A DNA stretch of 64,000 nt, taken from contig JAJFUB010000169.1 of assembly GCA_021372615.1 (NCBI GenBank), positions 1 to 64,000 of the forward strand. Reading direction: 5' to 3'. The notes under the pieces were generated by a model. It was not told the origin of the DNA. It saw only the letters and a program-made list of their open reading frames with translations, and did not search any database. A program made the position numbers and the translations under genes. This document shows positions 6,657 to 11,676 of this stretch, in pieces. This stretch comes from a bacterium (GTDB taxonomy: Bacteria > Armatimonadota > Zipacnadia > Zipacnadales > UBA11051). The number at the start of each line of letters is the position of its first letter. Positions within the stretch are counted from its first letter, which is position 1.

Positions 6657-8729
6657 CTACGAGACCGGCTGCAGCTTCCGCTCGACGGTGACCTGCATCG
6701 TGGCCTCGACCTTGTCGCCGACCTTCCAGCCCCGGAAGTCAGTCGCGGCCAGACCGCACTCGGCGGGTGCCTGCATCACGGACACATCCTGGTTGAAGTG
6801 CCGCAGCGACGTCAGCTTGCCCCGGTAGACTTCCTCGCCGTCGCGCGTCACGACGATGTCGGCGTTCGGCCGCATCTCCCCGTCCGTCACGCGCGAGCCG
6901 GCCACGACACCCACCCGCGAGATGCGGAAGATCTGCAGGACCTCGGCCTTGCCCAGGTACTGGGTCTCGATGAGCGGCTCGAGCATCCCGAAGGCGGCGG
7001 CGCGGAAGTCGTCGAGCACCTGGTAGATGATGCGGTAGGTGCGGACCTCGACGCCCTCACTGGCGGCAGCCTGCAGGACCGACGCGTCGGCTTCCACGTG
7101 GAAGCCCACGACGATGGCCTTGGAGGCCGTGGCCAGCAGCACATCGGACTCGCTCACCGCGCCCACGCCGACGTGGATGACGTTGATCTTGACCTCTTCC
7201 AGCTCTTCATTGAGCTGCAGCAGCGAGCTCTCCAGGGCCTGCGCCGAGCCGTAGGCGTCGGCCTTGATGATGACATTGAGGTCCTTGATCTGGCCGCCCT
7301 GCAGCGTATGGTACAGCTCGCGCAGCGCCGCGCCCTGCGCGCCGATCGCCTGATGCTCGCGCAGCACCAGCGCGTTCTGCTCGGCCATCACGCGCGCTTC
7401 CTTGGGGGTGGCGACGCGGATCATCACGTCGCCGGACTCGGGCACATCGGACAGGCCGATGACCGAAGCCGGGTGGCCGGGCTCCACCGTCTTGATGGTC
7501 TTGCCCAGCCAGTTGCGCAGCCGTCGCACGCGGCCGTACGCCGTGCCGCACACCACCACATCGCCCACGCTCAGCCGGCCGTTGCGCACCAGTACCGTCG
7601 CCACCGGGCCCTGGCTCTGGTCGAGCTGCGCCTCCACGATGATCCCCGCCAGGTCGGCGTTCGGGTCGGCCCACAGCTCCTGCACTTCCGCGACGATGTG
7701 CAGCATCTCCATCAGGTTGTCGAGGCCCTCGCCGGTCCTGGCCGAGATGGGCACGACGATGGTGCTGCCGCCCCACTCCTCGGGGACCAGTTCGTGCTCC
7801 AGCAGTTGCTGCTTGACGCGATCCACGTTGGCGTCGGGCAGGTCCACCTTGTTGATGGCCACGACGATGGGCACCTGCGCGGCCTTGGCATGGTTGATGG
7901 CTTCCACCGTCTGCGGCATGATGCCGTCGTCGGCCGCCACAATGATGATGGCGATATCGGTGACCTGCGCCCCGCGGGCGCGCATGGCCGTGAAGGCCGC
8001 GTGGCCGGGGGTATCCAGGAACACGATGGGCTTGCCGTCATGGGATATCTCGGAGGCGCCGATGTGCTGGGTGATGCCGCCGGCCTCGCCCGCGGCGATC
8101 TGCGTGTTGCGCAGCGCGTCCAGCAGGCTGGTCTTGCCGTGGTCAATGTGCCCGAGCACGGTGACGACCGGGGGCACGTCAATGGCCCACTCGGGGCGGT
8201 CGCCGGACGGGCGCCGCGCCATGTCGGGAATGGGCTTGACCAGGGGCGCTTCCTCTTCCTCGCCGGCCCGGCCCTGCATGGCCGCCAGGTGCTCCTCCAG
8301 CTCCATGAGGCCCTCGTGCAGGCGCGGCGGGCCACCGGGCAGCCGGCCTTCGCGCTCCTTCTTCTCGCGCTCCTCGCGCTCGCGTTCCTTCTTCTCTTCC
8401 TCGGTCATCGGGGGCGCGGTCGCGGCCTCCCCTTCGGGCGCGGGGGCCTCGGCCGGCGCAGCCTTGCCGCGGCCACGCTTGGCCGCCGGCGCTGCCGCGG
8501 GTGCCGCTGCCTCCTTGGCAGCAGCCGCCTCGGCCACCTTGGCTTCCTCGGCCGCCTTGACCTTGGCGGCCTGCTCGCCGATGATGTCGCGCAAGGCCGT
8601 CGCCGTCTCATCATCAATGGCCGACGCCTTGGTGACATTCTCCACGCCCAGCTTGGCCAGGGCGGCCAGCAGCGCTTCCGTCTGCAGCCCCATCTCCTTG
8701 GCCAATTGGAAAACCCGTACCTTCGCCAA
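6657..8729 (-). CDS. infB: Translation initiation factor IF-2
   Basis: 690 residues. Recruits initiator tRNA to the 30S subunit and promotes subunit joining, using GTP. Residues 1-50 form an IF2_N domain ([12 protein letters not shown]). Residues 55-135 are a charged Ala/Glu/Lys linker. The G domain follows with G1 GHIDHGKT (193-200; the usual Val is Ile), DTPGHAAF, and NKVD. Domains II, III and IV complete the length, with [13 protein letters not shown] visible in domain III. It lies 195 bases after nusA on the same strand. Confidence 0.97.
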
Positions 8730-8924: not shown

Positions 8925-10205
8925 CTACTCCTCGAAGTTGTCCAGCGTGCCCGAGCCGCCACTGAGCAACTCGCGCAGCATCTTCGCGACATCCTCGGAG
9001 ACCGTGCTGGCGTGACTGGTGACTTCCACGCCCTCCTCCTGCAGGATCTCGACGAGGTCCTTGCTCTCGACTTCCAGTTCCTTGGCCAGCTCGTAGATGC
9101 GGAAGCGCCGCTCCTCCTTGGCCTCGGCGGGGGCGGCAGTCTCGGCGCTCGCCGCGGCGGCCGCCAGTGCCAGGTCCGGCGCCTCGGCCCACTGGCTCTC
9201 GCTGCGGATGTCAATCCGCCAGCCGGTCAGTTGCGCCGCCAGCCGCACGTTCTGCCCGCGCCGGCCGATGGCCAGCGAGAGCTGGTTGTCCGGGGCGATG
9301 ACGGTCGCGGACTGCTCGTCCATGTTCGGCAGCACTTGGCTGACGCGCGCCGGCGACAGCGCGCTCTTGAGGTACTCGCGGATATCGTCATTGAACCGCA
9401 CGATATCAATCTTCTCGCCGCGCAGTTCGTCCACAATCGCTTGCACGCGCGCGCCGCGATGGCCCACGCACGCGCCCACCGCATCCACCTGCGTGTCGGT
9501 CGAGAGCACCGCGACCTTGGAGCGGGCCCCCGGCTCGCGCGCCACCGACTTGATCTGCACGATGCCGTCATAGACCTCCGGCACCTCCAGCTCAAAGAGC
9601 CGGGTGACCAGTTGCGGGTGGGTGCGCGACACAATGATCTGGGGGGTCTTGGTGGTCTTGCGGACTTCCAGCAGATACACCTTCAGCCGGTCATTGAAGC
9701 GGTACGGCTCGCCGGGGATCTGCTCGTGGGCCGGCAGCAGCGCCTCGGCCCGGCCCAGCGCCACGAACACATTGCGCGCGTCCTTGCGCTGCACCTCGGC
9801 GGTGACGACCTCGCCGACGCGGTGGCTGAACTCGTCAAACACGATCTCGCGCTCGGCCTCGCGGATGCGCTGCATGACGACCTGCTTGGCCGTCTGCGCC
9901 GCGATGCGGCCGAACTCGTGGGTATCCACTTCCCGCTCTTCGTACTGCAGCAGCCCCTGCTCGGCCAGCGCTTCGAGGTCCAGCGGCTCAGCCCCTTCGG
10001 GCTGTTCGGGGAGGATGGGCTTGCGCACGATCATCCGCATCGTCCGCGCCCCCATGTCAATCTGCAGCCGCACCTCCTCGGTCGAGCCGTAGTGCTTGCG
10101 GTAGGCCGAAGACATGGCCGCCTCCACGGTCTGCACCAGGGAGGTCAGGGGAATGTCCTTTTCCTTCTGAAGCTGCTCCAGGGCCTCGAGGAACTCTCCG
10201 TTCAT
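8925..10205 (-). CDS. nusA: Transcription factor NusA with C-terminal IF2_N domain
   Basis: 426 residues from the ATG at 10205, which has a GGGAG site 9 bases upstream; a TTG three codons earlier is an alternative. The order is the RNA-polymerase-binding N-domain (to about 125), the S1 domain, and two KH domains (CVGHRGARVQAIVDELRGE and LAIGRRGQNVRLAAQLTGW). After an Ala-rich linker, residues 367-414 (RFRIYELAKELEVESKDLVE and onward) match the IF2_N domain that opens IF-2 in the next gene. NusA controls pausing, termination and antitermination. The extra domain is unusual; the acidic repeats found at this end in enterics are absent. Confidence 0.95.
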   Translation of the reverse strand: MNGEFLEALEQLQKEKDIPLTSLVQTVEAAMSSAYRKHYGSTEEVRLQIDMGARTMRMIVRKPILPEQPEGAEPLDLEALAEQGLLQYEEREVDTHEFGRIAAQTAKQVVMQRIREAEREIVFDEFSHRVGEVVTAEVQRKDARNVFVALGRAEALLPAHEQIPGEPYRFNDRLKVYLLEVRKTTKTPQIIVSRTHPQLVTRLFELEVPEVYDGIVQIKSVAREPGARSKVAVLSTDTQVDAVGACVGHRGARVQAIVDELRGEKIDIVRFNDDIREYLKSALSPARVSQVLPNMDEQSATVIAPDNQLSLAIGRRGQNVRLAAQLTGWRIDIRSESQWAEAPDLALAAAAASAETAAPAEAKEERRFRIYELAKELEVESKDLVEILQEEGVEVTSHASTVSEDVAKMLRELLSGGSGTLDNFEE

Positions 10206-10245
10206 GTATTTCAACTCCCGTTGCTTGGGGAAAATGATGCACTAC

Positions 10246-10327: not shown

Positions 10328-10825
10328 TCATTCCGCATTTGTCTTTGCCTCGTCCGGCCACTCATGCACCAGGTGCGCCTGTTCCACATCATCCAGCGGC
10401 AGGCGCTCGACCTGCTCGCCCACCTGCAACACCACCTGCCCGTCCTCCAGGCCCTGCAGGCTCCCCCGTACCGTCGCCCGCTTGCCCTCGGCATCGCGCG
10501 TCGTCACGGCGGCCCTCCGGCCTGCAAAGCGCGCGAAATCCTCATCGCGCGTCAGCGGCCGGTTGATGCCGGGCGACGACACCAGCAGATGATAGCTGCC
10601 CGAGATCGGGTCGAGCACATCCAGCAGCACCGACAGCCGCTCGGTCATGTACTGGCAGTCGTTGGTGGTCACGCCACCGGGCTTGTCCATGTACACCGAC
10701 AGCGTCTGGTTGCCGGGCGGCCCGCCGAACTTGATCTGCACCAGTTCGTAGCCGAAGTCCCGCAGCGTCTGCTCGACTTCCCCCTCGATCCTCTCCACGA
10801 CCGGGTGCTTCGCCGCCTGTTTCAC
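10328..10825 (-). CDS. rimP: Ribosome maturation factor RimP
   Basis: 165 residues starting at GTG, with an AGGGCGG ribosome site about 7 bases before it. Needed for 30S subunit maturation. Family signatures are YELVQIKFGG, LSVYMDKPGGVTTNDCQ, and the very conserved VSSPGINRPL followed by DFARFAG. It is the first gene of the operon, directly behind a leader that carries its own intrinsic terminator. Confidence 0.93.
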   Translation of the reverse strand: MKQAAKHPVVERIEGEVEQTLRDFGYELVQIKFGGPPGNQTLSVYMDKPGGVTTNDCQYMTERLSVLLDVLDPISGSYHLLVSSPGINRPLTRDEDFARFAGRRAAVTTRDAEGKRATVRGSLQGLEDGQVVLQVGEQVERLPLDDVEQAHLVHEWPDEAKTNAE

Positions 10826-10840
10826 GTTTGGCCGCCCTGA

Positions 10841-10873
10841 AAAGCAAAAAGAGAGTGGGCGGAACGCCCACTC
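10841..10873 (-). terminator. Leader terminator (attenuator) ahead of rimP
   Basis: On the minus strand, GAGTGGGCG-TTC-CGCCCACTC forms a perfect 9-bp stem with a 3-nt loop. It is followed directly by TCTTTTTGCTTTT, a proper U-tract. It lies about 25 bases downstream of the predicted start of transcription and 15 bases before the rimP GTG. No upstream minus-strand gene needs terminating here, since the neighbour at 11158 runs the other way, so this is a leader attenuator of the rimP-nusA-infB operon. Confidence 0.82.
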
Positions 10874-10906
10874 CCAGGAAGAGTCCCTGAGATTGACTAC
10901 AGCCCA

Positions 10907-10935
10907 AGTATAACCATGTGCCCCCGGCAGTGCAA
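10907..10935 (-). promoter_or_regulatory. Sigma70-type promoter of the rimP-nusA-infB operon
   Basis: On the minus strand, TTGCAC (10935-10930) is spaced exactly 17 bases from TATACT (10912-10907). Transcription would start near 10900. The rest of the divergent gap up to 11157 holds only the inverted repeat at 11001. Confidence 0.7.
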
Positions 10936-11000
10936 GAGGAAAGTGCGATACCGGCCCCGCAGAGGCCGTGTGAGGTCATCCTGCCAGTCCCTCAACCACC

Positions 11001-11035
11001 AGGGCGGGGTGTCGGCTGCGCCGACACCCCGCCCT
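11001..11035. repeat. Perfect 16-bp hairpin in divergent intergenic region
   Basis: AGGGCGGGGTGTCGGC, a TGC loop, then its exact reverse complement. It lies between the rimP promoter and the start of the divergent PurS-like gene. There is no T-tract, so a repetitive palindrome or protein site is as likely as a terminator. Confidence 0.8.
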
Positions 11036-11157
11036 AACCACGAGACACCGCCCCACTGCCCCTCCCTCTGTGTCGTCATCTGCCTCCCGCGGCCACGAAG
11101 GTATCCTCGCCCCGTCGGCGAATTGCCCCTCACTATTGTTGCCATCGGAGCCTGACC

Positions 11158-11676
11158 ATGAAGAACGTCGAGCTGCTGGTCCGTCTGAAGATCCCGGATG
11201 TCACGGCCTTGACCGCCGCCAACGCCCTGCGCCGCAGCATGGGCTACTCCCAACTGCGCGAGTTGGGCCGGGCCGACTACTACCGCCTGGCGCTGAACGC
11301 CGACACCGACGACGAGGCGGTCGCCCTCGCGCGCGAGCTGGCCGAGAAGACCAACCTGTTCGTCAACCCCAACAAGCACGTCTACGAGGTCGTTACGAGC
11401 CACGCAACCGCCGCCCCGGCCCAGGGGCAGCGCGCGCAGGTCCTCGTGACCGACCCGCACGACGGCTCCGCTGAGGGGATGCTCTCGGCCCTCCAGGGCC
11501 GTCTGGGCTATGCCGACCGCGTCGCGGGCCTGACCCGGGGCGTGCTGTGGACGATGGTGCTGGACGTACCGGACGCCGCCGAGGCGCGCCGCCTGGCCGC
11601 CGAGATGGCCGAGACCAAGTCCCTGGAGAAGGGCCTGCTGGTCAACCCCCATTTCCAGGAATTCGAGGTCTGGTAA
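11158..11676 (+). CDS. Doubled PurS-like protein
   Basis: 172 residues made of two related halves. Residues 3-78 run from VELLVRLKIPDVTAL to LFVNPNKHVYEV, and residues 93-172 from AQVLVTDPHDGSA to LLVNPHFQEFEVW. Each half has the PurS outline: an opening strand, a GY plus hydrophobic strand, an Asp-rich turn, and a closing LxNP-x-x-x-x-(F/Y)EV. PurS is the small bridging subunit of FGAM synthase in purine synthesis, normally about 80 residues and acting as a dimer. A fused pair could act as a built-in dimer. purQ and purL are not adjacent, so the pathway is inferred. Confidence 0.7.
   Translation: MKNVELLVRLKIPDVTALTAANALRRSMGYSQLRELGRADYYRLALNADTDDEAVALARELAEKTNLFVNPNKHVYEVVTSHATAAPAQGQRAQVLVTDPHDGSAEGMLSALQGRLGYADRVAGLTRGVLWTMVLDVPDAAEARRLAAEMAETKSLEKGLLVNPHFQEFEVW

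Follow-up and report, generated by a model that had tools for sequence, protein, structure and literature searches.

The rimP-nusA-infB operon on the minus strand of the window (the whole 64,000-nt stretch analysed here) is preceded by an intrinsic terminator, and the question raised by this locus is whether that terminator provides feedback by NusA, which the operon itself encodes. That NusA feeds back on its own operon is a proposal decades old, shown in few species; attenuation of this kind has been reported for B. subtilis and put forward for S. agalactiae and E. coli.

The rimP-leader, with its GGGc...gCCC stem, is termed the most ubiquitous transcription attenuator by Naville and Gautheret (2010; PMC2965389), according to whom its general form shows no antiterminator outside some Gammaproteobacteria and NusA is the best candidate regulator. 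For the B. subtilis nusA operon, a review (PMC12288461, its ref. 34) describes autoregulation by NusA-stimulated intrinsic termination in the 5' leader. RNA-seq in S. agalactiae revealed a short RNA, and termination 31 nt downstream of the point where the rimP-nusA operon, gbs0413-gbs0418, starts (PMC4448216).

Layout of the operon and its leader

Downstream of the leader, the genes follow in the order rimP (10328..10825), nusA (8925..10214) and infB (6657..8729), all on the minus strand, and the RimP (PF02576, PF17384), NusA (PF08529, PF00575, PF13184, PF04760) and IF2 (PF00009, PF11987, PF22042) domains were confirmed with Pfam. The GTG start of rimP at 10825 lies after the terminator, as originally predicted. 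NusA, the likely sensor and target, has an additional IF2_N domain at its C-terminus (residues 372-415); the same domain begins IF2, the product of the neighbouring gene, and was also present at the NusA C-terminus in five of six order relatives tested. No tRNA or tmRNA upstream of rimP, as in E. coli metY, was found in the 64-kb window.

On the minus strand, the leader comprises a -35 element TTGCAC (10930..10935), a 17-nt spacer, a -10 element TATACT (10907..10912), an upstream box UCUCAGG as candidate antiterminator strand (10886..10892), its partner CCUGGGA (10872..10878), whose GGGA doubles as the base of the terminator 5' arm, the terminator hairpin GGGAGUGGGCG-UUC-CGCCCACUCUC with loop UUC (10851..10875), and the U-tract UUUUUGCUUUU (10840..10850). 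About 30 nt separate the -10 element from the hairpin, and 14 nt the U-tract from the rimP GTG; from the end of the terminator stem (10851) to the GTG (10825) the distance is 25 nt, within the rimP-leader range of 4-130 nt. The terminator scan yielded 11 pairs in the stem, 8 of them G-C, instead of the 9-bp hairpin of the original prediction, and the U-tract, described there as clean, is present but interrupted. The leader folds with a z-score of -3.4, and 1 of 200 dinucleotide shuffles was as good. The terminator core GAGUGGG...CCCACUC is the rimP-leader signature, and the stem in the window, GUGGGCG...CGCCCAC followed by UUUUU, has the GGGc...gCCC pairing and U-stretch of that family. Judged by sequence, the window leader is a variant of the general rimP-leader that has kept the family-defining terminator motif.

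A generic sigma-70 scan detected no promoter at the leader, since TTGCAC matches TTGACA poorly. A promoter with a TTG-type -35 element, a TATAAT-like -10 element and 17 nt between them was present in 36 of 38 order leaders, that is, leaders from the order to which the window belongs, at a median of 31 nt before the arm and with the 17-nt spacer in all 36 leaders with a detected promoter; the 17-base-spaced promoter noticed in the window is therefore credible. Among other leaders, mostly from Firmicutes, 44 of the 52 promoters found had a 17-nt spacer, and the median distance was 30 nt. Promoter and terminator thus form one compact unit. A terminator between the promoter and the first gene was thus borne out by sequence, scan, fold and conservation, and we infer that transcription terminates at the leader hairpin in vivo.

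Between the divergent rimP promoter and a purS-like gene, a perfect 14-bp palindrome, GGCGGGGTGTCGGC-TGC-GCCGACACCCCGCC, was observed at 11003-11033; the genome contains it four times, one copy having 1 mismatch, and the reversed control gave no copy. The PurS-like protein (172 aa; 11158-11676, plus strand) has its Pfam match at residues 4-78, and on inspection by eye the first half seems to be repeated in the second.

Conservation of the terminator

For the terminator, a covariance model (R1) was built on 52 leaders from several phyla, Firmicutes included. Its training rows include the window and several relatives, for which the E-values are therefore optimistic. In the 6.4-Mb window genome, the leader site was the sole match at E <= 0.05 (E 3.6e-7, 39.1 bits, as one of the 52 training rows). 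The stem covaries (score 0.292 versus 0.176 in shuffles, none of 500 reaching it), and four core pairs (GC, AU, GC, GC) are invariant across the 52 sequences; because these pairs never change, the core suggests recognition of sequence beyond the fold alone. Rfam release 15 gave no matches in the window at curated thresholds, and a lax scan of 10600-11200 returned chance-level hits only.

Searching the order for the same hairpin, a check proposed along with the original prediction, gave an R1 match in 38 of 41 genomes. RimP was likewise found in 38 of the 41, and the three genomes lacking the match (G003, G028 and G038) are the same three that lack RimP. The window genome belongs to the Armatimonadota; the NusA proteins of the Armatimonadetes MAG L056 and of G059, which comes from the same phylum as the window, share 84% identity.

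The leader before nusA in genomes lacking rimP

In 211 of the 255 Armatimonadota genomes no RimP_N was found, and NusA_N was found in 201 of 205, which points to an apparently widespread loss of rimP in this phylum, or to its divergence beyond detection. Among the matches listed with R1, 70 of 84 rimP-less Armatimonadota genomes, from 18 families, have the hairpin on the same strand directly before nusA at a distance of 21-232 nt, a spacing that leaves no room for rimP; the linkage of the leader is thus to nusA and not to some other gene. In some of the remaining rimP-less genomes, nusA was unlisted among these matches or on another contig. When 30 rimP-less loci were looked at by pattern or hairpin search, 27 had such a hairpin before nusA, mostly 40-175 nt upstream, a count that includes some looser variants or hairpins farther away. 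L056, for example, has no RimP in its genome, and its leader at 2938-2974 is followed by nusA starting at about 3001. Many members of the large family f25 are without a leader match, so the leader can be lost. On the simplest reading of these arrangements, the leader would serve nusA.

A leader hairpin directly before nusA was also noticed at the start of a Candidatus Atribacteria contig (L123:308-342), possibly the same linkage in another phylum. At locus L242 (G074:C29:4700-6200), the leader model matches twice, at sites about 1 kb from each other, on a contig other than that of nusA.

An upstream box as a candidate competitor of the terminator

An alternative leader structure, which the original prediction had left to be searched for, was found as a candidate. 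In 35 of 38 order leaders, the upstream box pairs with the CCUGGGA-type sequence at the base of the terminator 5' arm, keeping at least 5 of 6 scored pairs. The box is UCUCAGG in most order leaders, CCCAG in f5 g7, CCGGG in f3b and CUUCAGG in f4; three f2 genomes have no clear box. As GGGA is shared with the base of the 5' arm, box pairing and terminator are mutually exclusive. Lineage f4 has changed box, arm and 3' arm jointly (CUUCAGG / CCUGAAGAGCGGG / CCCGCUCUUC).

Pairing of the 28 nt upstream with the arm base was compared with mononucleotide shuffles, giving p = 0.012 for the window and p < 0.05 in 14 of 20 order genera; a p-value combined over these genera is overstated because they share ancestry. 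For the pairing tests, composite rows of box, arm and 3' arm were used, since a MAFFT alignment of whole leaders (A2) set the f4 box in the wrong register. In the 21 distinct order rows, for which the box register was set by sequence similarity only, 96% of cells in box and arm base were paired and covariation was 0.408 versus 0.233 in shuffles, a score reached in none of 500 shuffles and approached by no slid register of box against arm in these rows. Within the order, f4 is the sole source of the double changes, which another alignment reads as one inserted pair together with changes on one side only. When relatives from the class and f16 were included (f7, f8 and f16, the boxes of which were chosen by complementarity), box covariation was 0.614 versus 0.264 in shuffles, and terminator covariation on the same rows 0.282 versus 0.163. 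When upstream strands were swapped among five lineage types, 2 of 120 permutations were as good, the own strand fitting its own arm better. The pairing has been preserved through changes in sequence, as would be expected of a competing antiterminator.

With the box paired, the remaining terminator stem ends about 4 bases short of the U-tract. The forced box-paired and terminator states lie about 1.0 kcal/mol apart in the window, and the difference ranges from -1.7 to 6.6 kcal/mol in other members; most favour the full terminator by 3-7 kcal/mol, so only kinetic competition would be feasible there.

The idea that every rimP-leader has an antiterminator was rejected: among the matches listed, 66 Firmicutes and other named leaders gave a combined p of 0.58, and 43 genera, mostly rimP-less members of the phylum, gave p 0.16. 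No upstream partner strand was found in most rimP-less relatives and sampled Firmicutes leaders; as f2 has no clear box and most leaders outside the order lack one, an antiterminator cannot be essential to the general mechanism.

Other upstream pairings were observed in passing. In f16 and in the Armatimonadetes MAG L056 (L056:2905-2974, L208, L213, L216), a different hairpin, UUUCAGA...UCUGAAA, stands before AGAGCGGG, directly before nusA. Six Bacillaceae-like rimP leaders (L074, L082, L089, L093, L101 and L103) have ACUCU...AGAGU upstream of the terminator, at the position of the box, a hint of an antiterminator with single p-values of 0.02-0.10 and no significance as a group.

A probable NusA-responsive attenuator and its alternatives

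The promoter, the terminator, their conservation, the position before nusA and the competing pairings can all be read from the sequences. Together with the rimP-leader family and the precedents in B. subtilis and S. agalactiae, the linkage to nusA supports the NusA feedback that had been put forward as plausible, and the leader is probably a NusA feedback transcription attenuator. NusA dependence and switching in this organism would then operate as follows. RNA polymerase would start about 25 nt before the hairpin and reach a rimP-leader-type intrinsic terminator within about 60 nt, and NusA from the downstream gene would slow the polymerase and aid hairpin formation. With NusA plentiful, most transcripts would stop in the leader; with NusA scarce, more would read through into rimP-nusA-infB. 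In members of the order, UCUCAGG would pair first with CCUGGGA at the base of the nascent 5' arm, and as long as this hairpin held, the terminator stem would be shorter by 3-4 basal pairs and kept off the U-tract, so that termination should fail. Full termination would come about by branch migration, for which NusA-stimulated pausing would give time.

A constitutive, partly efficient terminator, which sets a basal level of the operon and senses neither NusA nor anything else, would agree with the full terminator being the minimum-energy state in most leaders and with a general leader that has no second structure. It accords poorly with a core sequence that is invariant beyond pairing, with the retention of the hairpin before nusA after rimP loss and with the NusA-controlled leader termination known in the homologous B. 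subtilis operon, and we consider it unlikely. Binding of the leader by RimP, the first gene product, as regulator is a possibility named in PMC2965389, and rimP does adjoin the leader; persistence of the leader before nusA in genomes without recognisable rimP makes this highly improbable, and NusA is favoured over RimP as sensor because the hairpin stays with nusA after rimP loss.

For the function of the box within a NusA attenuator, the main rival to a kinetic antiterminator is a pause hairpin, or a structure stacking on the terminator, that would offer NusA a place to act, with the overlap in the arm being incidental. The box-arm hairpin is indeed the first of the two to form, part of it can exist alongside the full terminator in the window, and NusA stimulates hairpin pauses (PMC12288461); however, the pairing enters arm bases needed by the terminator in f1, f3, f4, f5 and f6, and changes in the shared arm bases preserve both pairings, so we hold a pause hairpin to be not very likely. 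Given a NusA attenuator, the chance that the upstream hairpin is a kinetic antiterminator, displaced thanks to NusA-stimulated pausing, is about even. The most specific proposal is made tentatively and stays somewhat doubtful: a minimal NusA-driven switch of about 60 nt, in which terminator and upstream antiterminator box share the 5' arm near balance, and of which several lineages of Armatimonadota (order type, f4, f7/f8, f16) would have remade the box in differing sequence.

Comparison with known leaders and implications

With the rimP-leader of PMC2965389, the present leader shares the operon, the GGGc...gCCC stem and U-tract a short way ahead of the first gene, and the proposed NusA feedback; it differs in the candidate antiterminator of 35 of 38 order members, as the general form is without a visible one, and in standing also directly before nusA where rimP is lost, an arrangement that, as far as its text was accessible, the paper does not describe. 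The gammaproteobacterial rimP-leader likewise pairs a terminator with an antiterminator before rimP, but uses a second upstream terminator (CCCg...cGGG), whereas here a single helix of 6-7 bp invades the base of the general terminator (PMC2965389). The B. subtilis nusA operon also has its terminator in the 5' leader, and the compact promoter-terminator distance is common to the Firmicutes leaders analysed here; NusA dependence is experimental there (PMC12288461), whereas for the present leader we infer it. S. agalactiae gbs0413-gbs0418 shows premature termination in a leader before rimP-nusA-infB, as predicted here (PMC4448216), but in another phylum and from RNA data, the present leader being known from sequence alone.

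The terminator and the idea of NusA feedback are already known, and the original reading is thus mostly not new. The order-specific candidate antiterminator and the retention of the leader before nusA after rimP loss were undescribed in the limited open-access literature searched, as far as its accessible portions go, and the fixed promoter-terminator unit across the order also goes beyond what was found in print. With rimP lost and the leader kept ahead of nusA, such lineages amount to a natural experiment, one in which NusA stands out as the product under regulation. The order-specific box may offer a simple model for the control of a terminator by a general elongation factor, in which a few base pairs at the base of the stem would decide whether the hairpin reaches the U-tract.
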